DNA of 44,798 nt from NCBI GenBank assembly GCA_027449865.1, contig DAIDKV010000225.1, positions 1-44,798 on the forward strand, in the 5' to 3' direction. The DNA is from Planctomycetales bacterium. Its GTDB lineage: Bacteria; Planctomycetota; Planctomycetia; Isosphaerales; Isosphaeraceae. The notes below the pieces were generated by a model, which was not told the DNA's origin, searched no databases, and saw nothing but the letters and a program-made list of their open reading frames with translations. Positions 6,604-33,178 of the stretch are shown in pieces. Within the stretch, counting starts at the first letter, position 1. Each line of letters opens with the position of its first letter. Position numbers and translations under genes: made by a program.

Positions 6604-6619
6604 GACCTGCCTCCCCTTC

Positions 6620-8335
6620 TCAGTGCCGGTGGGCGGCGGCGGGGGCCGCGGCCGAGCGGTTGGCCTGGCCGCGAAGGGCAGGCGGGCCGCCCTTCGCCGC
6701 GCTCTTCGGATTCAGCCGGTTCTCGGCGTCGATGAGGAACGAGCCCGCGGTAGCGACCCTCTCGCCAGGGGCGAGCCCTTCGAGGACCGGATAGACGTCT
6801 CCGGAGACGGGGCCCAGGACGACCTCGCGCCCCTCGAAGACGCCCGGCTCGGTCTCGACATAGACCAGCTTCTTCGTGCCGGTGTCGATGACCGACGACT
6901 CGGGAACGGTGAGGACCTCGTCCTTCGGCGTCGGGGCGAGCCGGGCGAGATACTTAGCCGGCTCGGCCTTGAGCTTCGGCGGGCACGCCTCGCAGCACGT
7001 CCAGATCTTCCCGCCCTCCACCTCCGCGGGGACCGGCTCGCCCATCGCGCCGAGCTTGAGTGTCGTCACCGGGCAGATCTTCTGCTCGGCCGCGGTGAGG
7101 CTCGCGTGCCTCGCATGGGGCTCCTTCGGCCCTGAGGCGGCGAGCCGCGACCGGAACGCGGGCGTGTCCGCCACGGGCGTGTTGAGCCTCACCGTCGCGA
7201 ACATCCCCGGTCGGAGACGATAGTCGGCGTTTTCGAGGTCGTAGCGGACGTCGACGGTTCGCGTCGCGGGGTTGAGCGCCGGGGCGATGAAGGCAATCTT
7301 TCCCCGGAAGATCTCGCCGGGATAGGCCTCCACACGGGCTTCGACCGCCTGGCCGACCTTCAGGGCCGAGAACTGGTCCTCATAGACCTGCGCCTGCACC
7401 CAGACATGCGAGAGATCGGCGACCTCGAACAATGCGTCGCCCTCGGCCACGTACTGCCCCTCGACCACATTCTTGCGGGTGACGACGCCGCTGATGGGGG
7501 AGAGGATCGGAACGTTGTATCCCGCCTTCCCGCCCCCGAGGATCTGGTCGACCTGCTGCGCAGTGATCCCCCAGCGGGACAGCTTCTCGCGGGCGAGCCG
7601 GACCATTTCCCCCTCGCTGCCCAGGAGCGAGCGGCCGATGGCGCTCTGCGCCGGGGGGCGTTCCCTCGCCGAGCGCTGGGCGAGGAGGAGTTCCTGGATG
7701 GCCTGGTACAGCTCGGGGCTGTAGAGCTCGGCGAGCGGCTCCCCGGCCTTCACCGAGTCGCCGTTGAAGTTCACGTAGAGCTTCTCGATCCGGGACATGC
7801 CCCTGGTCTTCGAGGAGATGCGTGCGAGCCGCCTCTCGTCGTAAGTGACGGAGCCCACCGTGGTGATGGCCTCGGAGAGCGGTGCGTAAGCGATCTCGCT
7901 CGTCTGGATCCCCGCCTGGACCACCCGCATCGGGCCCAGGGCAAGCCGCGAGACGACCCCCGCTGGCAAGTTCTCCTTCTCGCCGACCTTCCGCTTCGAG
8001 AGTGGCATCCCGCAGATCGGGCAGCTCCCCGGCTGCGGCTGGATGACCGTCGGGTGCATCGGGCAGTAATATTCGACGTCGGACGCGGCGGTATGGGCCG
8101 AAGCTGCCGGCCGCGTCCACTTCTCGTAGTGATTCCAGATCGTGTCCCAGTAGCCGAACACCAACCCCGTGGCGGCCATCAGCGCGACGAAGCGGAGCCG
8201 GAGCTCGACGACCTTCACCACCATCCGGAACTTCTGCCAGCGCGTCAGGGGCGGCTCGGACGGGCCGTGTGGCGGACGCGCGGACGCTTCGACCGGGGCC
8301 GCATCGGGCCCCTGGACATTCGCTTCCCAAGACAT
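6620..8335 (-). CDS. cusB: CusB-like periplasmic adaptor with two metal-binding modules
   Basis: This 571-residue membrane-fusion protein links the RND pump to an outer-membrane channel. An N-terminal membrane anchor (about residues 47-62) is followed by a heavy-metal-binding domain at about 89-113 (YYCPMHP...CPICGMPL). The usual hairpin, lipoyl and beta-barrel parts come next (for example VLTVPESSVIDTGTKKLVYV near the end). An extra YHS-like insert at about 417-460 carries CPVT and WTCCEAC and resembles the 720-1415 protein. The tail is His-rich. The ATG at 8335 follows GAGGGGG. A second metal site inside the adaptor is less usual and suggests metal hand-off within the complex. Confidence 0.93.
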   Translation of the reverse strand: MSWEANVQGPDAAPVEASARPPHGPSEPPLTRWQKFRMVVKVVELRLRFVALMAATGLVFGYWDTIWNHYEKWTRPAASAHTAASDVEYYCPMHPTVIQPQPGSCPICGMPLSKRKVGEKENLPAGVVSRLALGPMRVVQAGIQTSEIAYAPLSEAITTVGSVTYDERRLARISSKTRGMSRIEKLYVNFNGDSVKAGEPLAELYSPELYQAIQELLLAQRSARERPPAQSAIGRSLLGSEGEMVRLAREKLSRWGITAQQVDQILGGGKAGYNVPILSPISGVVTRKNVVEGQYVAEGDALFEVADLSHVWVQAQVYEDQFSALKVGQAVEARVEAYPGEIFRGKIAFIAPALNPATRTVDVRYDLENADYRLRPGMFATVRLNTPVADTPAFRSRLAASGPKEPHARHASLTAAEQKICPVTTLKLGAMGEPVPAEVEGGKIWTCCEACPPKLKAEPAKYLARLAPTPKDEVLTVPESSVIDTGTKKLVYVETEPGVFEGREVVLGPVSGDVYPVLEGLAPGERVATAGSFLIDAENRLNPKSAAKGGPPALRGQANRSAAAPAAAHRH

Positions 8336-8506
8336 GGATCCATTCCCCCTCGCGGCCGAGGCACGCAGGCCCGGGCCGGGATTCACCCGCAAAACGAAAT
8401 CGCGATGGGTGTTAGCGTAGAGGCGCTGAGGCGGTGACCCGCGGACGGACCGGGGACGCCGACGCCTACCACATGCGAGACGAGGATCGCCTCGCGGGGG
8501 AAGGGA

Positions 8507-8977
8507 TCAAACGAGGAGGTGGAGGGTGCGCAGGTAGAGGGGGGATTTCGGCGCGCTCGGATTCGCCGAAACCGGCCGAAACGCGGACAGGAAAGGCCTC
8601 GGGACATAGCCGAGATACGCGATGATCTCGTCATGGCCCTGATGGCTGCGACTCTCATCGGATGTGCGGGAGTCGGGCTTTTGGGCCGGGGCGGACGGGG
8701 CGTTCGAGCGGCACGCGCAGGAGCTTCCCGGCCGGGCATCGAGCCTTACCGGGGAGGCCGACCATTCGACACCCTCGGGTCGGGCGATGCCGGGGCGTGG
8801 GGCGAAGGATTCGGACCGCCCGCAGCATCGGCAATCGGCCGCCGGACTCGACGCGCAGCACGCCTTCGGGGCTTTGACCTCCGCACAAGCATTGGCCGCG
8901 CCGCCGACCGACAGCATCCCCGCGAGCGCCATCAAGGCGATCCAGGCGGGATTCAGGCGGTGGCGGCGAGTGGTCAT
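8507..8977 (-). CDS. Cys-rich secreted protein, unknown family (paralogue at 37355)
   Basis: The product has 156 residues. A signal peptide (about residues 1-30, ending ...GGAANACAE) is followed by paired cysteines (ACCASS, CRCC, CACRS). The middle is Pro/Ser-rich and the C-terminus ends in SPLYLRTLHLLV. I do not recognise a named family. The protein at 37355-37828 shares the layout: a Cys-pair region, a C-x-C-R-(S/A) motif followed by a Pro-rich segment, and a similar ending (RPLYVLTTHLRF). Both sit first in a copper cluster, so a small exported copper-binding protein is a reasonable guess. It precedes the CusB-like gene on the same strand. Confidence 0.7.
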   Translation of the reverse strand: MTTRRHRLNPAWIALMALAGMLSVGGAANACAEVKAPKACCASSPAADCRCCGRSESFAPRPGIARPEGVEWSASPVRLDARPGSSCACRSNAPSAPAQKPDSRTSDESRSHQGHDEIIAYLGYVPRPFLSAFRPVSANPSAPKSPLYLRTLHLLV

Positions 8978-9290
8978 GTCGATTCTCAGGTCCGCAAAAG
9001 AGGACGAGCGACAACCTGGGCCATTCTACCCGGCAAACCTTCTGAGGACAAGTTCGGCTGAAAGCCGGCCTTTGCTGGAGTCAAACTCGTATCGCATCGG
9101 ATATTGTTACGATGCGTTCCTTCGTCTTGTTCGGGCAAGATGCCAATTCGGAAAAATCGGCGCGGCCGGCATTTTCGGCGAAAGCGACGGCCCCGCTTCG
9201 TCCGATGCTCCCTCCGGGCTCATTGACATCGGCGATGCCGATCGCGCATCCGGTACGCGCGACGCGGCGGAACACGGAGGAATGCCGGCA
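8978..9290. promoter_or_regulatory. Divergent intergenic region between the efflux operon and the TolC-like gene
   Basis: This 313-bp gap separates the leftward copper operon from the rightward outer-membrane gene, so it must hold promoters for both. A perfect 7-bp inverted repeat (CGCATCG at 9093-9099 and CGATGCG at 9110-9116, 10-nt loop) lies in a locally AT-richer stretch and is a candidate operator. No classical CueR or CopY operator was recognised. No copper-responsive regulator gene was recognised anywhere in the window. Confidence 0.4.
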
Positions 9291-10853
9291 ATGAGACGAA
9301 ACTGGTTCCCCATCCTGGCCGGAGGGCTCGTCTTCGGGTCAGTGGGCTGCGCGCAGGTGGCGAAGCGGGCCGAGCCGGCCGGGGAGAAGGCCGCGGTGAA
9401 GCACGATGGGGCGGTCGCACCGACATCCTTCCACCCTCCAGTCCTCCCCGGCGCGGGTGAGCCGATGTCCGCCGCGATCGCGCCGGCACCGGGAGTCCCC
9501 GCCGAGCTTGCCGGGCCCCAGCCAGTCGATGCCTATATCCGCCGGGCACTCGCCGAGAATCGCACCGTCCAGGCGGCGTTCCATAACGTTCAGTCGCTGA
9601 AGTACCGCATCCCGCAGGTGACGACACTCGATGATCCGGTGGCCTCGAACACGATCTTCCCGATCCCGAGCGTCGCGCCCCAGTACAGCCTGATGGGCTA
9701 CAACCCTTACAACCTAACCCTCGCCCAGCAGTTCCCGTGGTTTGGGACGCTCCGGCTCCGCGGCGAGGTGGCCGAACGCGACGTCCAGGTCGCCCTGGCG
9801 GAACTGGCCGCGGCGCAGCTCGACGCGGTCGCGGCGGTCAAGCGCGCCTATTTCGACCTCTACGTGAGCCAGAAGACGGAAGAAGTCCTGGTCGAGAACC
9901 GGAAGATCCTCGAGGACTTCCGGACGCTCGCCAAATCCCGACTCGGCACGGGCGGCACGCAGCAGGACGTGCTCCGCGCCGAGGTGCTCATCAGCGAGCT
10001 CGACCGCGAGGAGGCGACCATCCGGCAGGGGATCGCCACGGCCCGGGCCTCCCTCGCCCGGCTGCTCCATGTGAGCCCCGAGACCGACCTCAGGGCCCTG
10101 CCGGAGCTGCCGCATGCCGCGATCCCGGCCGAGATGGAGCGCCTCTACCAGCTGGCCATCGCCGCCCGGCCCGAACTCCAGGGGCGGCTCGCCGCCGTCG
10201 CCCGCGACGAGAAGGCGGTCGAACTCGCGAGGAAGCGGTTCTATCCGAACGTCACCCTCGGCCTCACCTACATGGACATGGAGAAGACCAACGCCATGAC
10301 CCCGCAGACGGCGGGGGGCATGCCCAATATCGGGTTCTTCGTCGGATTCAACCTCCCCGTCTACCGGGCGAAGTACCGGGCCGGGGTGTGCGAGGCGGAG
10401 GAGCGGACCAAGGCGGACGCGAAGCTCTACGAGGCCCAGCGTGACGAGACCTTCGGAGAGATCAAGGAATTCATGGTCCAGGCCAAGGTCCAGCAGAACG
10501 TCATCGCGCTCCTTAAGGGGCAAATCCTCCCGCGGACGAACTCCACGCTCGAACTCGCCCGAAGCGACTACGCTAAGGGCAATGTCGACGTGGCGACGGT
10601 CTTCTCAGCCCTGCGGGAGGTGCTCCAGATCCAGCTCCAGGTCGCCCAGGTCGAGGGCGAGCTCGGGAAGGCCCTCGCCTCGCTCGAACGCGCGGTCGGC
10701 GTCCAGATTAACGAGCAACCGCCTACGCGCGGGGCGGAGGCCGCGTCCCCCACCCCGAATCTGCCCCCTCCCCCCGACGGCGGGACCGGCCCATTCCGGC
10801 CCGAGGCACCCGCATCGGAGCGGCCCGAGCAGCCGAGGCCCGAGCCGCTCTGA
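9291..10853 (+). CDS. TolC/CusC-family outer-membrane efflux protein
   Basis: This 520-residue protein is the expected outer-membrane channel of the tripartite pump. The N-terminus is hydrophobic with a Cys at GSVGCAQ, so it may be a lipoprotein like CusC, although the lipobox is imperfect. Two OEP-type repeats are visible: long helices rich in Ala/Glu/Gln (VKRAYFDLYVSQKTEEVLV) and beta-strand segments around FPWFGTLRL and GFNLPVYRAKY. A Pro-rich tail ends the protein. The ATG at 9291 has GGAGG 10 nt upstream; an ATG 9 nt earlier lies too close to that site. It is transcribed divergently from the adaptor and pump genes. Copper specificity follows from context only. Confidence 0.9.
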   Translation: MRRNWFPILAGGLVFGSVGCAQVAKRAEPAGEKAAVKHDGAVAPTSFHPPVLPGAGEPMSAAIAPAPGVPAELAGPQPVDAYIRRALAENRTVQAAFHNVQSLKYRIPQVTTLDDPVASNTIFPIPSVAPQYSLMGYNPYNLTLAQQFPWFGTLRLRGEVAERDVQVALAELAAAQLDAVAAVKRAYFDLYVSQKTEEVLVENRKILEDFRTLAKSRLGTGGTQQDVLRAEVLISELDREEATIRQGIATARASLARLLHVSPETDLRALPELPHAAIPAEMERLYQLAIAARPELQGRLAAVARDEKAVELARKRFYPNVTLGLTYMDMEKTNAMTPQTAGGMPNIGFFVGFNLPVYRAKYRAGVCEAEERTKADAKLYEAQRDETFGEIKEFMVQAKVQQNVIALLKGQILPRTNSTLELARSDYAKGNVDVATVFSALREVLQIQLQVAQVEGELGKALASLERAVGVQINEQPPTRGAEAASPTPNLPPPPDGGTGPFRPEAPASERPEQPRPEPL

Positions 10854-11892: not shown

Positions 11893-14412
11893 GTGGTTGA
11901 TTTCAAGAAGCGTCTGTCGGGGCGAGGCGCGGATAAGCTCGTCGACCCCGTGAAGCTGTACGAGACGCTGGACCGGGCCCACGACAAGGGACCCCTGCGC
12001 CCGGCCCAGGTCGCCGTGCTCTCGGATTGGTTCGCCAACCACCAGGACACGCGGGATAATATCGTCAAGCTGCACACCGGCCAGGGCAAGACCCTGATCG
12101 GGCTCCTGATGCTCCAGTCCCGCCTCAACGCGGGCAAGGGCCCTTCCCTGTATCTCTGCCCCGACAATTACCTGATCGACCAGACCTGCGACCAGGCCAG
12201 GCAATTCGGGATCGCGACCTGCACCGCGACTCCGGAACTCCCGGACGAATTCCTCAACGGCGGCAAGATCCTGGTGACCTCGGTCCAGAAGCTCTTCAAC
12301 GGGATGACGAAGTTCGGCCTGAACCGGCAGTCCATCCCGGTCGGCTCGCTGCTCATGGACGACGCCCACGCCTGCGCCGACATCGTTCGCGAGGCGTGCC
12401 GCATCCGCATCCCGAAAGAGGAGCCCGCCTACCACGCGCTGCGGACGCTCTTCGAGGACGACCTGGAATCCCAGGGGGTGGGCACCTTCGCCGACATCTG
12501 CAACAACCAGCGCGACGCCATCCTGCCCGTGCCGTACTGGGCGTGGCTGCCCCGCGAGGCGGAGGTCGCCCAGATCCTCTCGGACAATGCGAAGCGGGAA
12601 TCCGTCCGGTTCGCCTGGCCGCTCCTGAAGGACATGCTGAGCCGGTGCCAGTGCATCGTCTCCGGCGTCGCGCTCGAGATCGAACCCTACATCGCTCCGC
12701 TCGCCGCCTTCGGCTCCTATTGGGGGGCGCCGCACCGCATCTTCATGTCCGCCACCGTCACCGACGACGCGTTCCTCGTCAAGGGGCTCCAGCTCAAGCC
12801 TGAGACCATCACCCGGCCCTTGAGCTACGCGAAGGAGACCTGGTCGGGCGAGAAGATGGTCCTGCTCCCATCCCTCATCCACGATTCGCTCGACCGGGAG
12901 TCGATCGTCAAGGGCTTCGCCGCGCCCAAGCCCAAGCGTCGCAGCGGCCTGGTCTGCCTCGCCCCGAGCTTCAACCGGACGCGCGACTGGGCGGGCTACG
13001 GCGCCGCCGTCACTGACAAGGATTCCGTGTCGGGGGCGATCGACGACCTGAAGAAGGGCCGGTATGAGAAGGCGGTCGTCCTGGTCAACCGCTACGACGG
13101 CATCGACCTGCCCGACGAGACGTGCCGGATCTTGATCTTCGATTCGAAGCCGTATTCCGAGAGCCTGATCGACCTCTACCAGGAACTCTGCCGGCCGGAC
13201 AGCGACGCCACGCTCATGCGGACCGTGCGCTCCGTCGAGCAGGGGATGGGCCGCAGCGTGCGCGGCGAGAAGGATTATTCGGTGATCATCGCGATCGGCC
13301 CCGACCTCATCCGGCTCATCCGGGAGAAGTCGACGCGACGCTACCTGTCGCCCCAGACGGCGGCGCAGATCGAGATCGGCCTGGACATCGCCGACATGGC
13401 CAAGCAGGAGATCGAGGAGGGCAAATCCCCGGGCGACGCCTTCAACGGCGTGCTAAACCAGTGCCTCGGCCGCGACGCCGATTGGAAGGCCTTTTACGTG
13501 GAGCAGATGGACAAGGTGACGCCCGCTGGGGCGAACGAGGGCATCCTCCGCCTCTACGCCACGGAACTCGCGGCCGAGGAGGCGTACAACGCCGGAGACT
13601 ACGCCACGGCGAGCAGGACCATCCAGGCGATGCTGGACTCGGGCGTCGTGAACCCCGCCGATAAGGGCTGGTACGTCCAAGAGATGGCGCGCTACTACTT
13701 CCAGGCGGATCGCAAGGAGTCGCAGAAGCTCCAGGTTGCGGCCCACAAGAACAATCACATGCTCCTGAAGCCCCGGTCCGGCGTCACCGTTGCCAAGCTG
13801 ACCATCGTCAGCCAAGGGCGCGTCGAGCGGATCGCCGACTGGGCCCGAGAGCTGGGCAGCTACGCCGATGTCGACATCCGCATCACCGACATCCTGAACT
13901 CCCTGGTCTTCGGCACGAAGGCCGATAAATTCGAGCACGCGCTCGACGAGCTGAGCCGGGCGATCGGCTTCGCGGGCGAGCGGCCCGACAAGCAGTGGAA
14001 GGAAGGCCCCGACAACCTCTGGGCGGTCGACGCGACCCAATACCTCCTCTGGGAGTGCAAGAGCGAGGTCAACGTCACCCGCGCCGAGATCGACAAGCGC
14101 GAGGCCGAGCAGATGAACCGCTCCAGCGCCTGGTTCGACAAGCACTACCAGGGGATGAACGTGAAGCGGTTCATCATCCATCCGGCCAACACCGTGCAGA
14201 GCGCCGCGGCCTTCACGCACGAGGTGGAGGCGACCCGCGTGGCCGAACTCCGTTCCCTGGTGAAGTCGGTGAGGGAATTCTTCAAATCGTTCGAGGGGCA
14301 GAACTTCAAGGACCTCTCGCCCAAATACATCCAGCAGATGATCGACGCCCACCATCTCGCGGTCTCGGACTTCCTGAACGGCTACTCGAAGAAACTCCGC
14401 CATCTGAAGTAA
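11893..14412 (+). CDS. DEAD/DEAH-type helicase with C-terminal PD-(D/E)XK-like nuclease
   Basis: This 839-residue protein carries SF2 motifs. Motif I is TGQGKT (about residues 60-66), motif II is MDDAH (about 155-159), motif III-like is MSATV (about 284) and motif VI-like is QGMGRSVRG (about 448). Near the C-terminus, [19 protein letters not shown] (about 705-725) has the D...ExK spacing of a restriction-endonuclease-like fold. It is probably an ATP-dependent helicase-nuclease acting on DNA and a candidate phage-defence effector. The start is GTG at 11893 with only a weak purine-rich site upstream, so the start is moderately uncertain. A 92-residue gene follows after 90 bp on the same strand. 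I cannot match it to a named defence system. Confidence 0.75.
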
Positions 14413-16220: not shown

Positions 16221-17327
16221 CTACACACCGCCCTCGGCCAGCGAATAATGCGTACTCCTGCCTCCGGCGGCGTCCTTCACCAATATCCTACGCTTCACGA
16301 GGTCCATGATATCACGATGAGCGGTGTCCTGGGAGCATTTGGCGAGCCTTGCCCATTTGGATGAGGTGAGGTTGCCCTCGAACCCGTCCAGCAGCCGATT
16401 GAGGACCTTGCGTTGACGTTCGTTCAGCGATTCGCCCGCGTGTTCCTCCCAGAATCTCGCCTTCTTCAGGACCCGGGCGAGCGTCGCCTCCGCCCCGTCG
16501 ATCGCCCTGCCCAGGCAGCCGAGGAACCATCCGATCCAGCCGGTGGCATCGAGCGTCTCCTTCTGCGTGCGCTCGAGGATGGCGTAATAGTCGTTCCTCT
16601 CGGCCCGGATCTGCGCCGACATGCTGTAGAACCGGCTCGGGCTCCCCTCCGAGCGGGCCAAGGTCATGTCGGCGATGGCGCGGGCGATGCGGCCGTTGCC
16701 GTCGTCGAAAGGATGGATGGTCACGAACCAGAGATGGGCCAGGGCGGCCTTCAGCACCGCGTCGATACCGGACGGGCCGTCATACCAGGCGAGGAATGCG
16801 GCCATCTCCCGTCCGACCCGGGCCGCCTCCGGCGCCTCGTAATGCACCTTCTCCTTGCCGATCGGGCCCGAGACGACCTGCATCGGGCCGGAGCCGTCGT
16901 CCCGCCAGGCCCCGACCTGGATCCGATGCATGCCGCTGCGCCCGGTCGGGAACAGGGCCGCATGCCAGGCGAACAGGCGCTCCTCGCTCAGGGGCCGGTC
17001 GTAGTGCTGGGTGGCGTCGAGCATCATCTCCACCACGCCTTCGACGTCCCGCTCGGCGGGCGTCAAGGCCCCGATATCCATGCCCAGGCGGCGGGCGATC
17101 GAGGAGCGGACCTGGTCCCGGTCGAGGATCTCGCCCTCAATCTCGCTGGACTTCAGCACATCCTGGGTCAGGGTGTCGAGGACGGCCTCCGCGCGGAGCC
17201 GGAAGCCGAGGGCCTCCATTCGGCCGATGAGCCGGCCCTGCCGGTGGCGCACGGTGGCGAGCGGGGCGGAGATCGCCTCCTCGTCCCAATGAAACCTCGG
17301 CCAGTCGCTCTGCTGGTGGATATACAC
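16221..17327 (-). CDS. fic: Fic-family AMP-transferase (class II) with C-terminal winged helix
   Basis: This 368-residue protein has the Fic catalytic loop [12 protein letters not shown] at about 205-216, with the catalytic His and the Mg/ATP-binding Asp and Asn. SSEIEG at about 60-65 fits the inhibitory (S/T)xxxE(G/N) helix placed before the Fic core, which defines class II proteins that inhibit themselves. The last ~60 residues look like a winged helix ([23 protein letters not shown]), suggesting that the protein binds DNA. The start is GTG at 17327, with GGAG 6 nt upstream; that Shine-Dalgarno lies inside the palindromic repeats at 17330-17430. Autoregulation is therefore likely. The target protein of AMPylation is unknown. 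Confidence 0.92.
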
Positions 17328-17430: not shown

Positions 17431-17513
17431 GCACTTCCCCACCTTCCGCTCGACTTTGCCGAGAATTATGGTTGTATCAGAACGATTTAACGTAGGAGCG
17501 AGAGGAGCCATTG

Positions 17514-17783
17514 GTGACGCAAATGCTTGAAGGACAAAAGGATCGGCAGGATGTAGTGACGGCGCACGAGATCGGGACCTTTGTCTTCTGCCCCGAGCAG
17601 TGGCGGCTGGAGTACGGCCTGGGGCTCGAACCGGGCAACCAGGCGGCCCTCACTACCGGAACCCGGCATCATGCACGCAAGCAAACGGCCGAGCGGACCG
17701 CCGGTAGACTGCAGCAGTTCGGGCACAATATGATCGCCGCCGCCCTGATCCTCTTCTTCATCCTGTGGATCCTCGGTCGATGA
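17514..17783 (+). CDS. N-terminal half of a split, membrane-anchored Cas4-like protein
   Basis: The product has 89 residues. Its start, VVTAHEIGTFVFCPEQWRLEY, matches the N-terminus of Cas4/RecB-type nucleases, in which a conserved Cys before a P..W motif is one ligand of a 4Fe-4S cluster. After a charged linker it ends in a single transmembrane helix (MIAAALILFFILWIL). The GTG at 17514 is preferred (GAGGAG 6 nt upstream) over TTG at 17511 and ATG at 17523. Its stop overlaps the next start as ATGA, so the second gene is probably translationally coupled. It has no nuclease core of its own. Confidence 0.72.
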   Translation: MTQMLEGQKDRQDVVTAHEIGTFVFCPEQWRLEYGLGLEPGNQAALTTGTRHHARKQTAERTAGRLQQFGHNMIAAALILFFILWILGR

Positions 17784-18065
17784 CCCCGGGCCAATCGCTC
17801 CCCCTTTGGCCGATCGCGGCCGGCGTCCTCCTCGCAGGCCTGCTCCTCGTCTTGGCCGCCAGGAGAGTGCGGAAGGCCCGCGGCCTCGCCTCCGGACGGA
17901 CGCTCGCCCTCGACGACGTGACGCTTTATTCGGCACGCTACCGGCTTACCGGGCGTCCGGACAGGATCGTGCGGGTCGGGAAAAAGGTGATCCCGGAGGA
18001 GTGGAAGTCGGCCCGGCGGCTCTGGCCAGGGCACATCGCGCAGATGGGAGTCTACTTCCTGCTCA
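17780..18065 (+). CDS. Cas4-like nuclease gene, 5' exon (interrupted by a group II intron)
   Basis: This is the first exon of a gene whose coding sequence resumes at 20481. It begins with a transmembrane helix (LPLWPIAAGVLLAGLLLVL), then carries the nuclease core: YRLTGRPDRIV and IPEEWKSA (D...ExK) followed by GHIAQMGVYFLL, typical of Cas4/RecB PD-(D/E)XK proteins. The exon ends after the first base of a codon. Unspliced, translation would run into the intron and stop at 18091. With the 3' exon the gene is 513 nt (170 residues), in frame. The start overlaps the upstream stop (ATGA). Confidence 0.82.
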
Positions 18066-18744
18066 GTGCGCGACGGAAGCATGCTTGCTGAATGGGCCAT
18101 CACGAGAAAGGAGGATCGAAAAGCCCCATCCCTCATCTCAGGTGAGGATGCACCCTTGGGGCGAAGCCGTCGGGGCCCTCTCCCGGCGGTGAGATAGCTG
18201 CCCCTGAAAGGCGGGGTGAGACGCGACGTAGACCGTCGAGAGGCCCCGCTTGGTGGAGGCGTGGCACGGAGATCCACAAGAAGCGGGTTTCGGCCTACGG
18301 GAAAAAGTACCCCCATCCCTCCAACTCTACGTAGCAACCCTCCTGAGCGGTCATACCGGCTGGCCTGTGGCGCCACAGGGGGCGGGGATGGCGACCATGG
18401 CGACCTGAAGATGAGTAGCGGGCCGCACGAAGCACGCCGAGGCGACTCGCCGTGCGGGTTCCGGGGACGGACCTGGGTTACCCCTCGGATGGTCGGGATC
18501 CCGCGGAGAGCGGATCGGGCCAATCGGTACTCGCCTCCTAAACCATGCCGCTGGAGTCAGCAAGCGTGAACGTCGGAGACCCGCCGAGGGATGCCAAGGT
18601 GAATGGGCCACCGATGCCCTCGGCGGGAGTCGGAGCCGCCATAGTAGCGAGGAACCGGGGGAGAACCCCGGGGAGCGAAGGGCGGCAGTCTGTCGGGAAT
18701 GCCGATGCAGAGGTAGCCGGTCTAACACATAGGGGAACGTACCT

Positions 18745-20409
18745 ATGGATATCGGCGAAATGCAGAAGCGTCTCAGCCTCAAGGCCGAACGGGAGCCGGG
18801 CCATCGGTTCGACGACCTGTTCAGCCTGATCTGTCGCGAAGACTGGCTCATGCTCGCCCATGACCACGTCGCCAGCAACGCCGGGAGCCAAACGGCGGGA
18901 TGCGACGGGGTCAACATGAGGGCTTTCGACGAGGACCTGGGGGATAACCTCGGGGCCCTCCGAGAGGGCCTGAGGGATGGGACGTTCCGACCGAGCCCGG
19001 TCCGCCGAGTGTTCATCCCGAAATCGGGTGGGAAGCTTCGCCCGCTGGGCATCCCTTCCATCCGCGATCGGATCGTTCAGGAGGCGGCCCGGATGGCCCT
19101 GGAACCCATCTACGAGGCCGATTTCCTCCAATGCTCCTACGGGTTCCGTCCCAATCGATGCACGATGGACGCCATCGATCACGCCCGCTGGTACATGCAG
19201 GAGAGCTTGAGGTTCTTCTGGGTCATCGAGGGCGACATCTCGTCCTACTTCGACGCGATCAACCACCGGAAGCTGATGAAGCTCCTGGGGCGTCGCGTCA
19301 AGGACGGGCGGTTCCTCGACCTGATCTGGAGGTTCCTCCGGGCCGGCGTGATGGAACGGAAGCTGTTCAAGGACACGATCACCGGCACGCCGCAGGGCGG
19401 GATCGTCAGCCCCCTCCTGGCCAATGTATACCTTCATGAATTGGACAGATTCATGAAGCGGTACACGGACCTCTCCGAGTGGGAGAAGACCAAGCGCCGG
19501 AAGGCCGGGCTGGGGAACGTCGCCTATGTGCGCTATGCCGATGACTTCGTCGCCCTCTGCAACGGCACGAAGGACCAGGCGCAGGCCCTCCGGGATGAAC
19601 TCCGAGAGTTCCTCTCGCGGGAACTGCACCTGACCCTCTCGATGGAGAAGACGAGGGTCACGCACCTCAACGACGGGTTCGACTTCCTGGGCTTTCAGAT
19701 CCGGCGAGGCCGCGCGATGAACGGGGGGATGACGACGCGAGTTACCATCCCGCCGAAGGCGATCAAGAGGCACCTGGACGTGCTGAAGGCCGCCTTCTCC
19801 CCGTCGACGCACGGGGACTCGGTGTCGCTGAAGCTCCCGGAGGTCAGCAAGGTCATCTCGGGATGGTGCCGCTACTACCAGTACACGGGCCGGGCCGCGA
19901 CCCAATTCAGCCGGGTCGGGCACCGGGCCTACTGGCTGGCGGTCCACTGGCTTGCGGGCAAGTACAAGACTTCCTGCAAGGGGGTCATCATGCGGTTCGG
20001 CCGAGGTTCGACCCTGGGGACGACCGAGGCGCGGCTGGTGATGCACTCCGACTTCAAGTCACGCCGCTATCGGGGGCGCCTCCGTCCGTTCCCGAACCCG
20101 TACACCAGCGCGGAGGCCCTGATTCGGGAGAAGTTGCCCGAGGGGCAAGATCGGCTGGTCATCGAGAGCCGGAAAGGTTCAGAGGATCGCCGTCGAGAGA
20201 TCATGGCCCGCGACGACTACCGCTGTCGCTGGCCGGGGTGCGGCGTGCCGGTCACGCTCGGGACGGGGCATGTGGACCACATCCGTCCGCGGTGCGTCTT
20301 CGGTTGGAAGCCGGACGCGGACAAGCCGGAGAACCTGTGGACGCTGTGTCTGGAGCACCACCGGATCAAGACTGAGAACGACCGACAGAGGGAGAGCCGT
20401 GTGCATTGA
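18745..20409 (+). CDS. ltrA: Group II intron reverse transcriptase/maturase with HNH endonuclease
   Basis: This 554-residue intron-encoded protein has RT fingers and palm motifs: RPLGIPSIRDRIVQ, GDISSYFDAI, GTPQGGIVSPLLAN, and the catalytic YADD at about 264-267. A maturase (domain X) region (SGWCRYYQYTG) follows. The last ~60 residues form an HNH endonuclease (CRWPGC...HVDHIRPR...LCLEHH). Such proteins assist splicing and drive retrohoming into DNA. The ATG at 18745 follows GGGGAA. Unusually, the stop codon (20407-20409) lies inside domain V rather than within domain IV, so ribosomes would pass through the ribozyme core. Confidence 0.95.
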   Translation: MDIGEMQKRLSLKAEREPGHRFDDLFSLICREDWLMLAHDHVASNAGSQTAGCDGVNMRAFDEDLGDNLGALREGLRDGTFRPSPVRRVFIPKSGGKLRPLGIPSIRDRIVQEAARMALEPIYEADFLQCSYGFRPNRCTMDAIDHARWYMQESLRFFWVIEGDISSYFDAINHRKLMKLLGRRVKDGRFLDLIWRFLRAGVMERKLFKDTITGTPQGGIVSPLLANVYLHELDRFMKRYTDLSEWEKTKRRKAGLGNVAYVRYADDFVALCNGTKDQAQALRDELREFLSRELHLTLSMEKTRVTHLNDGFDFLGFQIRRGRAMNGGMTTRVTIPPKAIKRHLDVLKAAFSPSTHGDSVSLKLPEVSKVISGWCRYYQYTGRAATQFSRVGHRAYWLAVHWLAGKYKTSCKGVIMRFGRGSTLGTTEARLVMHSDFKSRRYRGRLRPFPNPYTSAEALIREKLPEGQDRLVIESRKGSEDRRREIMARDDYRCRWPGCGVPVTLGTGHVDHIRPRCVFGWKPDADKPENLWTLCLEHHRIKTENDRQRESRVH

Positions 20410-20427
20410 AAGGTGCACGCACGGTTC
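20394..20427 (+). ncRNA. Group II intron domain V
   Basis: This 34-nt hairpin has the conserved bacterial domain V form: GAGCCGTGTG on the 5' strand, a GAAA tetraloop, and CACACGGTTC-type complementarity on the 3' strand (CGCACGGTTC). The AGC catalytic triad is present at 20395-20397. It is the catalytic centre of the ribozyme. Confidence 0.9.
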
Positions 20428-20430
20428 GGC

Positions 20431-20477
20431 GGGGGGAGTCGGGAAACGGGCTTCGGCACCGCGCCCGGCTCCTACCC
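20431..20477 (+). ncRNA. Group II intron domain VI with bulged branch-point A
   Basis: The stem pairs GGGGGGAGTCGGG (20431-20443) with CCCGGCTCCTACCC (20464-20477), leaving a single unpaired A at 20474. That A is 6 nt before the last intron base, the expected position of the branch-point nucleotide that attacks the 5' splice site. Confidence 0.88.
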
Positions 20478-20480
20478 AAC

Positions 20481-20707
20481 TCGAGGAACGCCACGGCGTT
20501 CGCCCGCCCTACGGCTACGTCGTGCTCGGGACCGGCCAGAGGCACCGCGTCGAGAACGATGCGAAGCTCCGGGCGTGGGTCCTGGACTTGGCCGGCCAGA
20601 TTCGTGAGGCTCGCATGCAGCTTAACCGCCCCCTCCCCGTCCGACCGAAGCCGAACCTGTGCCGGTCTTGCGGGCAGAAGCAAAACTGCTCGCTGAGGAT
20701 TGGTTGA
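20481..20707 (+). CDS. Cas4-like nuclease gene, 3' exon
   Basis: This exon completes the gene begun at 17780-18065. Spliced, the junction reads VYFLL-IEERHGVRPPYGYVV, a natural continuation of a Cas4/RecB-type fold. The C-terminus carries CRSCGQKQNC, three cysteines spaced like the C-terminal 4Fe-4S ligands of Cas4. The fourth ligand would have to come from the separate upstream protein at 17514-17783. The exon has no start codon or ribosome-binding site of its own, so it is expressed only if the intron is removed. Confidence 0.82.
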
Positions 20708-24349: not shown

Positions 24350-27300
24350 GCGTCCCCCTCGGATCGCATGAGGATCGTGCCCGCGATCTCGTCGGCGTCA
24401 TTGAGCGCTGCCGTCGCCGACCAGAAACGGCGCCCAATGGGCTTGATGACGTAAAGAAGGCTCCCGTCGAACACCTTCAGTCCCCGCGCCAGCTCGAACG
24501 TGCCCCTCCCCCTGGCCGCCCCCTCCTGGAGCCGCTGGAGCGCGGCGAGCACGTCCCTGGTCGCCCCCTCGATCTGCCCCGGGTCCTCTTCTCGTCTCGT
24601 CTTCTGCAGGACCACCATGCCGACGCCCAGGCTGCCGTCGGCCATGGACTTGCCGTGGACGCGGTATTTTGCATTCGCCCATCCGTTGAGCGTCGAGCAG
24701 AGGAGATCGATGTAGCCCGCATAATCGTCGGGCCGGGCCGGCAGCAAGGCAGGCACGTCGATCCGCGCGCGGGTGGGCCTCACGCTCGGGATGACGATGT
24801 CGACGGTATCGGCGATGAGTTTACGCTCGATGGGATCGACGTCGAAATACTCAGCGACGAGCGCCTCGGCCCATGCCTGGGCCCGCCGCACGCCCTGATC
24901 CCTCCCGAGGGCCGCCTCCCCAGCTTCCCTGGCCACTGTCGCCATGAGTCGCCCGGCTTCCGCGATGATCTCGGCCCCACGTTTCGGACGGTCGGAGTGT
25001 TCCGGCAGCGGGAACGGCAGGCGCATGAGGTCGTCGATGTCGACCATGGCACGGCTCACCCCCCAACTCGCGGAGGTATGGAAGAGGAAATACCGGGCCA
25101 GGCGCGATCGCAGATAGAAGGTCAAGAAGGCCAACAGGTCGGCGTCCGCTGGCGGCCCGTGGATCCCGCGGATGCCATGCCGGTAGGCGACGTTGAAATT
25201 CGCGAACGCGACCTCGGGCTCGTTGGAGAAGCCGGTCTTCACCAGGACCAGCGGCTTCCTAAAGATGTCGGTGTTGCTGATGCCGCGACGCAGTTCCAGC
25301 ACGAGCTCGTCTTCGACGTCGCAATCCTCGGGGAAGAGCAGCAGGTCCAGTCGGTGCGTGTTCCGTTCGATCCGCGCCGCGCGGCGCAGGGTGAGCTCGC
25401 GCCGGGTCTGCGGGGCATCGTTCGGACCGAACGGCTCGAACCCCTCGGCGACGATCCATCGCTTGGGCACGCCCTTGCCCCGCTGGCCCAGGACGTCCCG
25501 AAGGCGGGGATACAGGCGCAGCCGGTCCAGGAGACGGCGGTCGCGCGAGGTTCCCCAGTAGCGTTCTTTCCAGATCATCGGGGCGTCGTCCCCGCGGAGG
25601 TCGTCGAGGACCTCCCGGACGCTGAGGTTCGCCCGGTCCTGCGGAAGGATCGAGATCACCTCGGCCTGCGTCACCGCCCAGTCGGTCTTGGGCGACCAGT
25701 ACTGGATGCGGTGGCCGCTATTGGCCGGCTTCTGCTTGCCGTAGCGGACGACCAGGGCGGGCGCCTCCGCGTCTTCGAACAGGAATCGCTGGAAGTCGGC
25801 CAGATTGAGGATGCGGCCGACGGAATGGGACCGGAACCACCGATCTTGGAACTCGACGGCGCTCTTCGTGTGGTTGAACAGCAGGCCGTGCGGCAGGACG
25901 AAGCAGACGGAGCCATCCTCGGCCAAGTGTTCCGGCGCCTTCCAGATGAAGGCGGCGGCGATCTGCTTGCCGGGGAACGGCAGCTTGCGGTGTGCACACC
26001 AGTCCGCCGCCGGTGCCGACGCGCCCCTCACCTTGGCCCACGGCGGGTTGCCAATCACGTAGTCCACTTTTCTCGGCGCGGCATGGTCGGCGAAAAAGTC
26101 GGCGCAGCGGATGGTCGCCGCCTCGGCCCCCTCGCTCGCGACCAGTCTCGGCAACACCTTGACCTTCTTCAGCACGCGGCGGATGTCCGGGGGCGAGAGC
26201 TGGTCGAGGAAGGCCAGGTAGAGGCTGAAGGCGGCGATCAGGCAGGCGGTGCGGTTCTTGTCCACCCCGTACAGGTTCGTTTTCAGGATCGACGTCAGCC
26301 CCTTGAGCTTCGCGTCGTAGCCGGCCTTGGGGTTGGCCCGGGCCCATTCCTCGGCCAGGCGGTTGAACAGGCCGACGAGGAAGATGCCCGAGCCGCAGGC
26401 AGGGTCGAGGAACCGCTTGCCGAGCAGGGAGTCTTCCCCGTCCAGGGCGGAGTCGATGACCAGTTCGGCCAGGAATCGCGGGGTGTAGAACGCGCCCGCT
26501 TCCCGCTTCTCGCGGATGCCTGCGGCCTTCAGGAAGTGCTCGTAGATGGCGCTGATGGTCTCGATCGGGATGATCCCGAATTCGTAGGGCCAGAAACTCC
26601 GCTGGCGGGTCCTCGGGTCGGTCCCCTGGATGAAGTCGTTCAGGATGTCGAGATGCTCGCCTCTGATCTGCGCGGCCTCAGCCTCCAGGTCCTCGCTGAA
26701 CAGGTCGCCGTTGAAATCCTCGCCCAGCTGCGAGAACAGCGCGTAGAGGTCAGCCTTGGCCTGCGAGCGTGATTTGCGGCCGAGGATGTCCGCCAGGCCC
26801 TCGGCCCCGTGGATGCCCGCTTCCTCAAGGTACTTCCGGTCGATCACCTTCCGGTCGAACAGGTAGCAGGTGAAGACGATGCGGCAGAGCAAGGCGTCGA
26901 GGGAGGCGGGGTCGAGCCGGGTCGCCGGCACCTCCGCGAGCAATTCGCGGGCGGCCTCGAGATGCCGCAGCAGGTTGCGGTCCACCCGCTGCCGCGGGTC
27001 GAAGACCCGCCGGTGGCGGTGATAGTATTCGCCGGTCTCCACGGCCACGAGGAACGCCCGCAGCCGCTCGGCCACGCGGTCCAGGCGCTCTACGAGGCCG
27101 TCCGGGGCGGCGCCCGGGCTATCGGCGACGGCGGGTTGCGAAAGGCCGGAGTAGATGTGGACCTCGTCAGGCCCGATCAGCGCGAGGATCGGGGCGACCC
27201 CTTGGTTCCAGAAGGTGCGATGCAGGGCCAGCACCTCGGACGCATCGAGGCGGTCCACCGTCCGGAAATAGACGATGGGGCTGCCCTCCTGGCACAGGAT

Positions 27301-28469: not shown

Positions 28470-29399
28470 TTATCCAGCGACCTCGTCGAATTTCAATGAT
28501 TTAGACGCGATGCCGCGGGCCACCCGGCGCCGCGTGTGCCTGCCGGACTCGTAGCGGGGATCATCGATCGCGAGCTGGTCGCGCTTGAGGAAGCAGACGA
28601 TCTCGTCCCCCTCCTCGTTCTTGTGCAGCGTCGTGGTGTATTCCGGCAGCGAGTCCGCCTCGATCACCTTGCGGACATCGATGGCGAAGTCAGAAAACCT
28701 GGAGGTCGACCCGGACTTTTCATAGAGCTGGCGCATGGTGAACTGCCAGCCGCCTTCCTGCTGGCCTGCGTGCTTCCTCGCCACGCGATAGAGCCAACGC
28801 TCGATCCCCCCGGTGAGCAGAAAATAATCCTCGTGGATGGTGAGGACCCCACCCTTCATGAGGATTCCCTCGTAGAGCCAGTCGGGCAGCGTCATCGTCA
28901 TCCCGATCGTCTCGCCGGTCTTCTCGTCCGTCACCTCCGTCCAGCTCTCGAGCCAGTGGAACGACGCGGCCTTCTTCTTGCCTTCGGCGCGGATATTGGT
29001 GCGGACGGCGGTATGCGTCAGCCTTTCGAGGGCGGCGCGGAGGCGGAGGTAGTGCTCACCGCCGGTGGCGCGCCGGATGGATTTCAGCAGGTTGTGCGGA
29101 TGGAAGCGGACGACGCGGCTGGGCGTCTGGCCGCGGTCGAGGGCCTCGGTGATCTGCGTCGAGGCCCAGATGAGGATGTCGGCGTCCCAGATCGTCGCGA
29201 GCCCGAATTTCGGATTGGCCGAGACCTCCACCCAGACGTCACCGACATGGTATTCGATGGGCGTGTAGCGCGGCTTCTTGGCCAGGCTGAAGAAGGGGCG
29301 CTCCATCGTATCCCGCTGGTCGCGGATCGGGATGTCCGCGAAATTGGCGGCGAAGAGGTCGGGCTGGTGATCGCCCTTGGGCGGCAAGCGTTTTGTCAT
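28470..29399 (-). CDS. repA: Plasmid replication initiator RepA (RPA family)
   Basis: This 309-residue protein matches the replication initiator protein A family (RPA): DTMERPFFSLAKKPRYTPIEYHVGD, then TIWDADILIWA, then a winged-helix-rich core (RRATGGEHYLRLRAALERL). These proteins bind iterons and open the origin together with DnaA. The ATG at 29399 follows AGGACC. The iteron array begins 6 bp after the stop codon. The family is best known from alphaproteobacterial and other plasmids, so the replicon may have a broad host history. Confidence 0.92.
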   Translation of the reverse strand: MTKRLPPKGDHQPDLFAANFADIPIRDQRDTMERPFFSLAKKPRYTPIEYHVGDVWVEVSANPKFGLATIWDADILIWASTQITEALDRGQTPSRVVRFHPHNLLKSIRRATGGEHYLRLRAALERLTHTAVRTNIRAEGKKKAASFHWLESWTEVTDEKTGETIGMTMTLPDWLYEGILMKGGVLTIHEDYFLLTGGIERWLYRVARKHAGQQEGGWQFTMRQLYEKSGSTSRFSDFAIDVRKVIEADSLPEYTTTLHKNEEGDEIVCFLKRDQLAIDDPRYESGRHTRRRVARGIASKSLKFDEVAG

Positions 29400-29590
29400 G
29401 GTCCTGTGCTATCAGTGCATCCGGCGACTCGGCTGCGACTCGCATAAAAGGACCCGGCGTCAGCAGCCGATCGCCTCGCGAACCATAGATCAGTCTCGGG
29501 ATCGTATCAATCGAAATACGCGGAGCGACGCATCCGCCACCCACCTCGCCCCGCTCGGCGGAGGCCCCTCGCCTCCCCCTCGCCTCGCGC

Positions 29591-29911
29591 CTATTTCAGG
29601 TAGCCGTTGGAGCGGAGCCAGGGTTCGACGGCCTGTTCGAGGATGTCCTGCAGCGTGTTCGGCTCGACGCCCGCGAGCTGACGTTCGAGCGAGGCACGCT
29701 TGAGCGCGGCCGAGAAATCGGCCCGCATCCGGGTGCTTAAGGGGACGCGGGACAGTGCGGCGGCCGTAGTCGGCGTAGGTGTAGGCGCTGGCGCCTCGCC
29801 CTGCGAGGCCTCCGGAGTGGCGTCCTTCCTGAACACGAATGCCTTCTCCTTCTCGGGATCGACCGCGGGTGTATTCTTGAGACCTTCAACTAATGCGCGT
29901 CGTTCGGCCAT
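29591..29911 (-). CDS. Small ParA partner protein (ParB/ParG-like role)
   Basis: The product has 106 residues. The N-terminal half is Pro/Thr/Ala-rich and probably disordered (APAPTPTPTTAAA). The C-terminal half is helical (STRMRADFSAALKRASLERQL...) and could be a ribbon-helix-helix or small helical DNA-binding domain. A perfect AAGGAGG lies 5 nt before the ATG at 29911, and the gene starts 11 bp after parA ends. This place and size are typical of the centromere-binding partner in type Ib partition systems. No ParB HTH motif is seen, so the assignment rests mainly on context. Confidence 0.7.
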   Translation of the reverse strand: MAERRALVEGLKNTPAVDPEKEKAFVFRKDATPEASQGEAPAPTPTPTTAAALSRVPLSTRMRADFSAALKRASLERQLAGVEPNTLQDILEQAVEPWLRSNGYLK

Positions 29912-29922
29912 GAGTCCCTCCT

Positions 29923-30609
29923 TTACGCGACTGCTGCTTTTTTCGATTTGACCGAGGACGGCTTCCGGCCCCTGATCTTGACGGCACCCGGCAGGATCTC
30001 GCGGAACAACAGGTCCGCCTCCTCGGCGGCCTCCTGGGCCCGCGAACCCAGATTCCAGACGACGGAGCCTTGGCCCGGAGCGTCGGCATAGACCTGACGT
30101 AGGACGAGGGCCCTCGTGGCCAGGGGAAGGTCGAGCGCCGCGGCGGCGTCCATCATGTCCTTGGTCAGCCGGTAGTTCTTGCCGATCATGCTCAGCACGA
30201 TCACGGCCTCGGGCTTGCCGGCCCTTATGTCTTGGGCCTGGCGGAGAACGTCGGTCGCCTTGGCAAGCGCCCGCACCTCGAGCATACTGGCCTTGCACGG
30301 CACGATCGCGAGGTCGGCGCGGAGCAGCAGCGCGCGGCTGGTCTCCGTCTGGCTGCCCGGCCCGTCGGCGACCACAAAGTCCGTCTCCTGGCACAGCTGA
30401 GGCAGGTCGTTCAGGATCATGTCGGGGTTGTCCAACCGGACGGCCCTCACCTCAGGCACCGCCTCCCGGATCCATTCCGATGAGGACTGCTGAGTGTCGC
30501 AGTCGGCCAGCGTGACGCGGTGCCCCTGCTTGTGGAGCCAGGCCGCCAGGTGGACGGCCAGGGTCGATTTGCCCACGCCGCCCTTAGAATTTGCTACAAC
30601 GATAATCAT
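29923..30609 (-). CDS. parA: ParA-family partition ATPase
   Basis: This 228-residue protein has the deviant Walker A box KGGVGKST at residues 9-16, the ADCDTQQSS switch region and the VVADGPGSQTE Walker B region. It is short and lacks the N-terminal HTH of type Ia ParA proteins, so it fits type Ib or MipZ-like partition ATPases. It would move plasmid copies by ATP-dependent nucleoid binding. A 7-bp inverted repeat lies about 50 bp upstream. A lysine-rich C-terminus (KIRGRKPSSVKSKK) may help nucleoid binding. Confidence 0.92.
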   Translation of the reverse strand: MIIVVANSKGGVGKSTLAVHLAAWLHKQGHRVTLADCDTQQSSSEWIREAVPEVRAVRLDNPDMILNDLPQLCQETDFVVADGPGSQTETSRALLLRADLAIVPCKASMLEVRALAKATDVLRQAQDIRAGKPEAVIVLSMIGKNYRLTKDMMDAAAALDLPLATRALVLRQVYADAPGQGSVVWNLGSRAQEAAEEADLLFREILPGAVKIRGRKPSSVKSKKAAVA

Positions 30610-30657
30610 GCTTTATCGCTTAAATGATTTCCGTCCGGCTGGCAAGCATTATGTGCA

Positions 30658-30675
30658 GCCGGACGACTGTCCGGC
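30658..30675. promoter_or_regulatory. Inverted repeat upstream of parA
   Basis: GCCGGAC at 30658-30664 and GTCCGGC at 30669-30675 form a perfect 7-bp stem with a 4-nt loop, about 50 bp before the parA start. It is a candidate operator for the partition operon. A short RNA hairpin is the alternative. Confidence 0.45.
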
Positions 30676-30771
30676 CGTCTTTCAGGCCAGCCAGCAGGAA
30701 AGCTAGCCATCTAGCTTGCAACCCCTCCTCTCACCCGCTTTCCCGCGGTGATTGGGGTCCGACAACAATCA

Positions 30772-31313
30772 TGAAAGAAAGCCTGAAAGAAAGCAGGCCT
30801 GCATGAGGGACGGTAAGCCATCCCGATGTCAATCCAGCTGTCATGCCTACCACGGCCTACCGACCGCGAATGTTCTTGCGAGCCCCTCGATCGGCAGCAA
30901 GACAGACGGCAAGAAAGCAGGATGGAAAGCAAGCAGGATGGAAAGCAAGAAGGCAAACCGACAGGATGTCTCGCAAGACGTCCATTAAGACAGCGGGATT
31001 TGAAGTAAGGCCGCATGAAAGTTATATGCCAGGAAAACTGCCCGGCGAAGCAAACCAGAAATCCAGAATGAAACACGGCTTTCATGAAAGACCGCAAGAA
31101 AGCCAGAAAGCAAACAAGCCGGAGGGGTTGCCTTCCAGACTGCTAACTGTCGGTGACATCTATAGCATCCAGCTCACGAAGCCATGCCGCAACTCGGGCA
31201 CATCGTGTGCAGGGTCAGTAAGGAGCGTTCCGCCCCCCCGTGTCAGACCGCCAAGGTAAGGGGCTTGACAGATTGCAAGAATGTCAGTGAGACAGATGGA
31301 AAGCAGGATGTCT
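30772..31313. repeat. Irregular direct repeats, candidate plasmid centromere
   Basis: No gene is convincing between 30610 and 31671. The stretch is full of purine-rich repeats. TGAAAGAAAGC occurs twice (30772-30782, 30784-30794). A 16-bp unit, CAGGATGGAAAGCAAG, is tandemly duplicated at 30918-30933 and 30934-30949. CAGGATGTCT occurs at 30962-30971 and 31304-31313, and shorter AAGAAAGC and CATGAAAG words recur between. A palindrome, GCAGGCCTGC, sits at 30793-30802. Repeats next to parA are commonly the centromere (parS/parC), which is the interpretation here. From 31314 to 31671 I see nothing definite. Confidence 0.5.
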
Positions 31314-31671
31314 ATCTGGCATGAAATCCCGCTTTCACGGTGAAAATCACCCCTAAGCACCGCTTAGGGAAGATGTCTGACGAAAACAGTTTAATCTGCT
31401 CACACAGCAAGTTAGATGGCTGAACGACGATTGACGCATCGTGATGAAGGAAGGGGAGGGGCCGAAACTCCACCCCCGGCAGCTGTCAGGAAGGCAACTG
31501 ACCCACGGCCGGTGAAGGGGTGAAAAGCGACCCCGCGAGGCGGTGGATCGGCCATAGGCCCACGGAAAGAAGTCGCGGAGGGCGAGGCCGGCCGGGGCGG
31601 TTTAGGGATCGCCGCCTCTGCGCATTGCGGTGAAGCGGCGAGGGTGGCCGGGCCCGCGGCCCTGACCCGGT

Positions 31672-32250
31672 TCAAACGACCGGAACCGGCTGGAAGTCCG
31701 CGTCGACGAGCTCCTTGGCCCAATCCTCGCCGAGGGTCGCCTCGGCGGCGTAGAGTTCGGCCCGGAAGGCTTCCAAGGCTTCCGGGTTGATCCGGCAGCC
31801 CGCCCGCTCGGCGATGATGGTCATGGCGTGGTAGATGCCCAATAGCCGATCTCCGCGGCCTTCGATATGGTAGCGGAAATCATCGGGGATGAATGCCCCG
31901 TCGAAGAGGCCCTCTTCCCGGGCCTTGTTCTCCAGATGGGTCATCCAGTCCCCGAGCCGGCTGGCTTCGCAGCGGATGTCGTGGAATCGCCGCCTTACCG
32001 CCCGCAATCGGACCCGCTGGAGGCCGGGCAGAGCGTGCCGTGCAAGCGAAAGGCCGAAGGCTTCGCCCGCGGAAAGCGGCCTTGGCAGCTTGCACGGACC
32101 GGCTGCGGGGCCAGCGTGCCGCGTCGAGGCCGAGGGTCGCGCCTCGCATTCAAGTCGGGGGAGGAGGCGGTGAGAGACGAGGAGAGTGGGCCCGGCAGGG
32201 GGTGCCGGGCCCTGGTAGGGGCAGGCCGCATCCTCGACGAAAACCTTTAA
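31672..32250 (-). CDS. Hypothetical protein downstream of ardC, start codon unresolved
   Basis: An open frame of up to ~192 codons follows ardC and overlaps its stop in the -1 frame. The C-terminal ~90 residues read like a real globular protein (GDWMTHLENKAREEGLFDGAF, then YHAMTIIAERAG). The N-terminal part (VFVEDAACPYQGP, LLVSHRLLPRLECEA) also looks protein-like, but it has no ATG, GTG or TTG near its beginning. The first usable starts are TTG at 32007 and ATG at 31944. A frameshifted or decayed gene, a non-standard start, or frameshifting from ardC are all possible. No family is recognised. Confidence 0.5.
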   Translation of the reverse strand, partial: LKVFVEDAACPYQGPAPPAGPTLLVSHRLLPRLECEARPSASTRHAGPAAGPCKLPRPLSAGEAFGLSLARHALPGLQRVRLRAVRRRFHDIRCEASRLGDWMTHLENKAREEGLFDGAFIPDDFRYHIEGRGDRLLGIYHAMTIIAERAGCRINPEALEAFRAELYAAEATLGEDWAKELVDADFQPVPVV

Positions 32251-33152: not shown

Positions 33153-33178
33153 GGGTCTCTCCTTCGTTGCAACGGTCT

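Follow-up and report, generated by a model that had tools for sequence, protein, structure and literature searches.

Positions 1 to 44,798 of contig DAIDKV010000225.1 from a Planctomycetales bacterium (assembly GCA_027449865.1), hereafter the window, contain a group II intron inside a gene for a putative Cas4-like nuclease subunit. The gene, here called C, is the second of a conserved two-gene unit, and the gene in front of it is called N. The best overall explanation, which we consider probable from the sequences, is that an apparently intact intron resides in a membrane-associated two-subunit Cas4-like nuclease unit and acts as a selfish element lowering the output of its host gene. A fuller description appears to us evenly balanced between true and false. 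In it, the nuclease would be embedded in the membrane, and its active site and iron-sulfur (Fe-S) cluster would be complete only when two separately made, translationally coupled proteins meet. The pair would be plasmid-borne across phyla, and its assembly here would also need a self-splicing ribozyme.

A preliminary description of the window proposed that a Cas4-like nuclease gene is split in frame between 17780–18065 and 20481–20707. The join is confirmed: the two exons (286 and 227 nucleotides (nt)) form a single open frame of 513 nt, or 170 codons and a stop codon, interrupted in phase 1. The translation of the joined exons includes ...VYFLLIEERHGVRPPYGYVV..., and across the junction it reads VYFLL followed by IEERHGVRPPYGYVV. 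The in-frame interruption of a Cas4-like gene stands, but the joined 170 amino acids (aa) correspond to the C-terminal part of such a nuclease only. Of the 103 residues in the unspliced C open reading frame (ORF), exon 1 encodes 95 and the intron the other 8. Without splicing, this stump would retain the hydrophobic stretch and the D-ExK-Q residues and would lose the three cysteines, so the intact product is predicted to require splicing, as had been proposed.

Homologues were searched in 45 genomes of the order; 20 of them, that of the window counted, have a match at E <= 0.001. The 35 match rows are the two window exons, 27 others from outside this genome with E < 1e-20 (the strong rows), and six weak or partial ones. 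Comparison with intron-less homologues, the check named in the preliminary description, agrees with the junction: all 27 strong rows continue over it (residues 88–104) without gaps. Three strong rows contain stops, near the junction in L023 (at Q88) and L024 (at Y92) and further on in L016. L021 (genome G010), a weak match, has a two-residue gap after the junction. The homologue with the best match, from genome G042, has a C protein that is 85% identical. Its locus, L038, lacks the intron and is syntenic with the window: two type IIG-like genes, C, N and a Fic gene occur there in matching relative order. Between L038 and the window, 14 bases 5′ and 4 bases 3′ of the junction are identical.

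The intron in C is apparently intact, judging from the parts that can be recognized. The Rfam Intron_gpII match stops exactly at the proposed 3′ border, 20480. The branch-point A20474 is bulged in the minimum free energy fold, 7 nt from the intron 3′ end. The translation of the reverse transcriptase (RT)/maturase contains YADD and scores 354 bits against TIGR04416 (cut-off 300), while its HNH match of 13.5 bits is under the cut-off of 21.4. The stop codon of this ORF falls within domain V. The stretch of the intron 5′ of the RT is present as one copy in its own genome. This genome has two further Rfam matches. One is below the gathering score; the other is a decayed group II intron at L076 (G000:C11), whose truncated RT is 33% identical and which adjoins a frame that resembles a serine recombinase. 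Relatives of the RT are found in 1 of 392 genomes of the phylum (its own) at E <= 1e-130, in 3 of 45 genomes of the order at 1e-60, its own counted, and in 15 plasmid records at 1e-100, the top-scoring one being 41% identical. A scan of IMG/VR with the RT gave no relative.

The closest intron in the order belongs to genome G039, with an RT 53% identical. It begins at L068:6244, inside a different, unrelated reading frame. This frame has Walker A/B-like motifs, and we presume that it probably encodes an AAA+ ATPase. The related intron at L068:6244-8053 directly follows the Walker B-like sequence VFVDE, and the contig stops within its RT. At the alignment position equivalent to exon-binding site 1 (EBS1) of the window intron, the G039 loop reads TTCGTC, pairing 6/6 with its own exon end GACGAG. 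The loop appears to change along with its target exon, and this is the best evidence for the intron borders. In the preliminary description, the intron ends, domain V, the branch A, and the pairing of EBS1 with intron-binding site 1 (IBS1) were said to agree with the borders; the 3′ end of the Rfam match, the fold and the G039 loop comparison support them.

Several observations weigh against the loop evidence or, more broadly, against the overall explanation. A second site pairing 7/7 with IBS1 is present in the window intron at 18344–18350. Pairing with IBS1 is weak by itself: the intron has two such sites, and shuffling its sequence gives an expectation of 0.65. In the G039 intron, position 597 also pairs 7/7, outside the loop and in a stretch absent from the window intron. 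An 8-column gap lies immediately 5′ of the EBS1 loop in the alignment of the two introns, and the chance figures for the loop pairing, 0.005 and 0.003, were calculated after the loop was picked. None of the Rfam domain I–IV families matched in the intron at a lax threshold. EBS2 was looked for on the window intron only, where the candidates are unconvincing. The site 18344–18350 was rejected as EBS1: it is base-paired in a stem of the fold, and its G039 counterpart pairs just 5/6. The features of the interrupted unit are listed in Table 1.

Table 1. Features of the N–C unit and its intron in the window.
Feature	Positions	Strand	Description
N-subunit ORF	17511..17783	+	TTG start, 90 aa; CPEQWRL cysteine motif, GxxxH motif-I histidine, C-terminal hydrophobic stretch
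C-subunit gene exon 1	17780..18065	+	Hydrophobic stretch, then D, ExK, Q, Y motif residues
IBS1	18059..18065	+	CTGCTCA; pairs 7/7 (one G-U) with 18412–18418
Group II intron	18066..20480	+	2415 nt, GUGCG...AC; Rfam RF00029 at 3′ end; absent from 27/27 strong homologues
EBS1	18412..18418	+	TGAGTAG; in predicted 11-nt hairpin loop
RT/maturase	18745..20409	+	554 aa, HNH-like C-terminal region; RVT_1 E 1e-34; GIIM above cut-off; TIGR04416
Domains V and VI	20392..20480	+	Rfam Intron_gpII (RF00029) 62.3 bits, gathering 40; predicted fold
C-subunit gene exon 2	20481..20707	+	CxxCGxxxxC cysteine triad and stop

The N and C ORFs overlap by four bases, ATGA, in which the N stop codon runs into the ATG of C (17780). 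Both halves are present in 23 distinct loci, including the window. The alignments comprise 16 of the 22 C halves outside the window, and 17 N rows, which are the matching N halves and the window N. Five loci with early stops or lost frames (L014, L016, L018, L023, and L024) were omitted, as was L025, which is readable and was not selected. All 16 C rows keep D61, E74, K76, Q88, Y92, C156, C159, and C165 without exception, and all 17 N rows keep C27 and H54. The peak 17-residue hydropathy is 1.95–3.21 in N, toward the C terminus (17/17), and 2.35–3.17 in C, near the N terminus (16/16). It does not exceed 1.59 in any of five one-chain Cas4-family controls. N, with C27 and the motif-I His, and C, with three cysteines and D-ExK-Q, together cover a Cas4-type PD-(D/E)XK nuclease. 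The cut falls after motif I and before the catalytic core, and a hydrophobic stretch flanks it on either side.

Profile matches fall on the two halves likewise. On PDDEXK_1, the N ORF covers positions 4–44 (E 0.007) and the exon-1 ORF 109–172, both under the cut-off. On TIGR00372 (Cas4), N covers 6–48 weakly (E 0.18), and the intact C of L002 covers 57–178 (E 4e-14). The C half scores 32.0 against PF01930, above the cut-off of 22.7, and 52.7 against TIGR00372, below the equivalog cut-off of 65. The pair is designated Cas4-like rather than Cas4, since it is not one chain and scores below the equivalog cut-off, although it exceeds that of PF01930. The model of the C half (L002; predicted local distance difference test (pLDDT) 85) has a helix at 10–33 followed by a PD-(D/E)XK-like core. 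Its top match in the PDB is a type I-C Cas4. Cas4/Cas1, MGME1, Dna2, and the Argonaute-associated Cas4 family (ACE1) nucleases are also among the best matches, and the query TM-scores of all these are about 0.5. Dna2, MGME1, and ACE1 nucleases share this fold with the C-half model, and each is one polypeptide that is not known to have membrane helices. The model of the N half is helical (pLDDT 78).

The sampled neighbours scanned contain no cas1 or cas2, save for cross-matches of the maturase RT domain; no search for CRISPR arrays was made. A C-profile search of the phylum found matches in 2 of 392 genomes, that of the window counted. The second genome has a one-chain Cas4 adjoining a repeat array and, by eye, a Cas2-like ORF. 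Scans of IMG/VR with the nuclease C half gave no relative. Phage records gave five weak matches to mycobacteriophage exonucleases, and none when searched with the Bacillus C half described below.

The pair is seen on finished plasmids. pSINAC03 of Singulisphaera acidiphila, a MOBF conjugative plasmid, encodes a hypothetical protein at 25321–25587 and a PD-(D/E)XK nuclease family protein at 25584–26093. PALBO2 of Paludisphaera borealis carries the pair plus a mobF gene. On pPL62-2 of SH-PL62 there is a broken C half only; N was searched there and not found. Three Bacillus subtilis plasmids also carry both halves, in divergent form. On one with conjugation genes, N has 81 aa, with CPHSW, G, H, and a tail that is hydrophobic, and a 4-nt gap separates it from a 162-aa C, which has a hydrophobic head, GRPD, ELK, QxxxY, and CxxC....C. 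A Helicase_C_2 helicase and a small ORF precede this pair. At L086:42454-45775, on a B. subtilis plasmid, five consecutive genes may be one operon: one for a DinG/XPD-like helicase, then a small ORF, followed by N, C, and a gene annotated as hfq. L091 repeats this order. N is labelled as a hypothetical protein on the four finished plasmids whose annotation tables were examined, and the enzyme is therefore recorded on them as a lone C-terminal fragment. In a tree of C cores, 17 split rows fall on one side of a branch with support 88/82.

Other observations speak against the overall explanation. The N half has no PDB relative by a sequence match search. Copies are damaged in N (L014 and L016) or in C (L016, L018, L023, L024, and pPL62-2), and with several copies broken the pair is dispensable. 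Among the omitted loci, L014, with its damaged N, has Y in place of the second cysteine of the triad, and L023 has G in place of the motif Asp. The Bacillus placement is unsure because of a long branch and an unsettled bootstrap, and a single origin of the Bacillus and planctomycete pairs, which would rest on the 88/82 support only, is likewise unsure.

The surroundings of the pair were mapped in 27 loci (the window and L038–L063). In some of them the pair is broken or incomplete, or the flanks are short. A MobF-type gene cluster is represented in 7 of them, ArdC in 5, and the replication initiator RPA in 3, one member of each cluster having been named through Pfam. At least 12 loci have restriction or Gabija genes no more than ~6.5 kb away: five were recognized by similarity to the type IIG genes of the window (window included), and seven by PADLOC, which matched 8 of 10 chosen proteins in a scan limited to those chosen neighbours. 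The pair is thus often plasmid or defence-island cargo, without a fixed partner. The idea that it belongs to one fixed restriction system was dropped, as the neighbours vary among type I, IIG, and III restriction genes and Gabija.

In the window, a DUF4172-Fic gene (16221–17327 (-)) adjoins N and shows 85–89% identity in four other pair loci (L038–L041). The helicase at 11893–14412 (+) matches the candidate defence family PDC-S28 with 1009 bits, and its homologue is beside the pair in L043. An RPA-type replication initiator (PF10134), a ParA-like gene, and an ArdC-like gene at 28470–33197 suggest a plasmid. The contig ends were compared and do not overlap. A lone ORF among the plasmid genes (33858–34274 (-)) resembles the flagellar rod protein FlgB. 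Two similar cysteine-rich proteins are encoded at opposite contig ends (2008–2472 (-) and 39008–39445 (+)), with 91 of 154 aligned columns identical; we take them to be copper-storage-like. The region 2563–10853, adjoining the former gene, is presumably a resistance-nodulation-division (RND)-type efflux set.

In the proposed mechanism, N and C would sit together in the inner membrane. They would form one joint active site, to which N contributes His and C contributes Asp, ExK, and Gln. They would also form one Fe-S site, with one Cys from N and three from C. The pair, as cargo of plasmids and defence islands, probably trims or degrades DNA at the membrane. The maturase would help the intron to splice via EBS1/IBS1, by which the C subunit would be restored. 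The intron is most likely a selfish element that reduces host-gene output rather than a dedicated switch.

The intron might instead be an effective knockout, splicing so poorly that the C subunit is no longer made and the gene is heading for decay. We regard this as unlikely, yet not implausible for dispensable cargo of which several copies elsewhere are broken. Both exons are open and still encode the residues found invariant in the alignments, and no damage is apparent in the maturase frame or in those parts of the ribozyme that were examined. On the window branch of C (compared with G042, outgroup L003), there are 17 nonsynonymous and 19 synonymous changes, a rate ratio of 0.32. The intron-less G042 branch has 8 and 14, a ratio of 0.21, and the branches do not differ significantly (P 0.59). 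Such a pattern fits continued function and gives no date for the insertion. Two points temper the argument for a working gene. Exon 2 has 7 nonsynonymous and 8 synonymous changes here, against 1 and 7 in the intron-less branch, an excess that would suit a knockout and is not significant (P 0.18). The constraint on the window branch may also be older than the intron.

The preliminary description also suggested that splicing could regulate the gene, and a dedicated switch, responding for example to infection or temperature, would agree with the fact that splicing decides the presence of the cysteine triad. We consider such a switch very improbable, and the suggestion is unsupported. Of 28 strong loci, including the window, only 1 has the intron at this site. 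The nearest relative of the intron in the order occupies an unrelated gene, and an Rfam scan of the window found no riboswitch and no RNA thermometer. The host protein of Ll.LtrB, encoded by ltrB, depends on splicing of that intron. In passages of PMC6003770, the spliced Ll.LtrB is reported to attack the ligated mRNA of the relaxase gene via EBS-IBS pairing and to lower expression, which favours general repression of a host gene over a tuned switch. Lowered output is likelier than a switch here, since the same effect is to be expected. The two cases are alike in having an intron in a coding gene of mobile-element cargo, with broadly the same kind of RT/maturase. They differ in that the host gene here encodes a Cas4-like nuclease subunit, and the RT scores only 214 bits against LtrA in phmmer.

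Programmed frameshifting at the overlap would make N and C one chain and leave no two-subunit enzyme. The C frame is indeed at a constant offset from N in 21 of the 23 loci. The overlap itself is not constant: it is 4 nt in 17 loci, 1 nt in two, and 10 nt in one, two further loci having a damaged N. The remaining locus, L015, has N and C in one frame, with the stop of N 3 nt ahead of the start of C, and the B. subtilis ORFs are 4 nt apart. No N–C fusion is found among the 23 loci, and frameshifting is, like the switch, very improbable. It is hardly credible that the two ORFs are remnants of an ordinary Cas4 made as a single chain: each half by itself resembles part of Cas4 and some copies are broken, but the split point and the hydrophobic stretches are constant in the 23 loci, in finished plasmids, and in a second phylum.

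The probably selfish intron and the putative split nuclease can be set beside described systems. The pair shares the PD-(D/E)XK core, the 1+3 cysteines, and the GRPD/ExK/QxxxY order with CRISPR, solo, and mobile genetic element (MGE) Cas4 (COG1468, PF01930; 8d3l; and, in part of its text, PMC5704561). It differs in being two polypeptides with hydrophobic stretches at the split, whereas known Cas4 is one polypeptide (5/5 controls are one chain). Passages of PMC5704561 describe MGE-Cas4, including a clade apparently tied to Burkholderiales conjugative plasmids, and the word "transmembrane" is absent from the main text of that paper. Neither a split or membrane Cas4 nor a group II intron in a Cas4 gene appears in passages of PMC5704561 and PMC5352709, and none is described in the literature searched, which mostly excluded subscription papers. 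The presence of an intron in the cargo of a mobile element has precedents; what is new is the split membrane Cas4-like pair.

If the two halves form one enzyme, a nuclease active site, and probably an Fe-S cluster, would be built across two membrane proteins. An enzyme that cuts DNA would thereby be confined or controlled in a new way at the membrane, the place of entry or exit for conjugating or phage DNA. The copy with the intron provides a natural experiment on whether such a gene can host a bacterial ribozyme without being destroyed.

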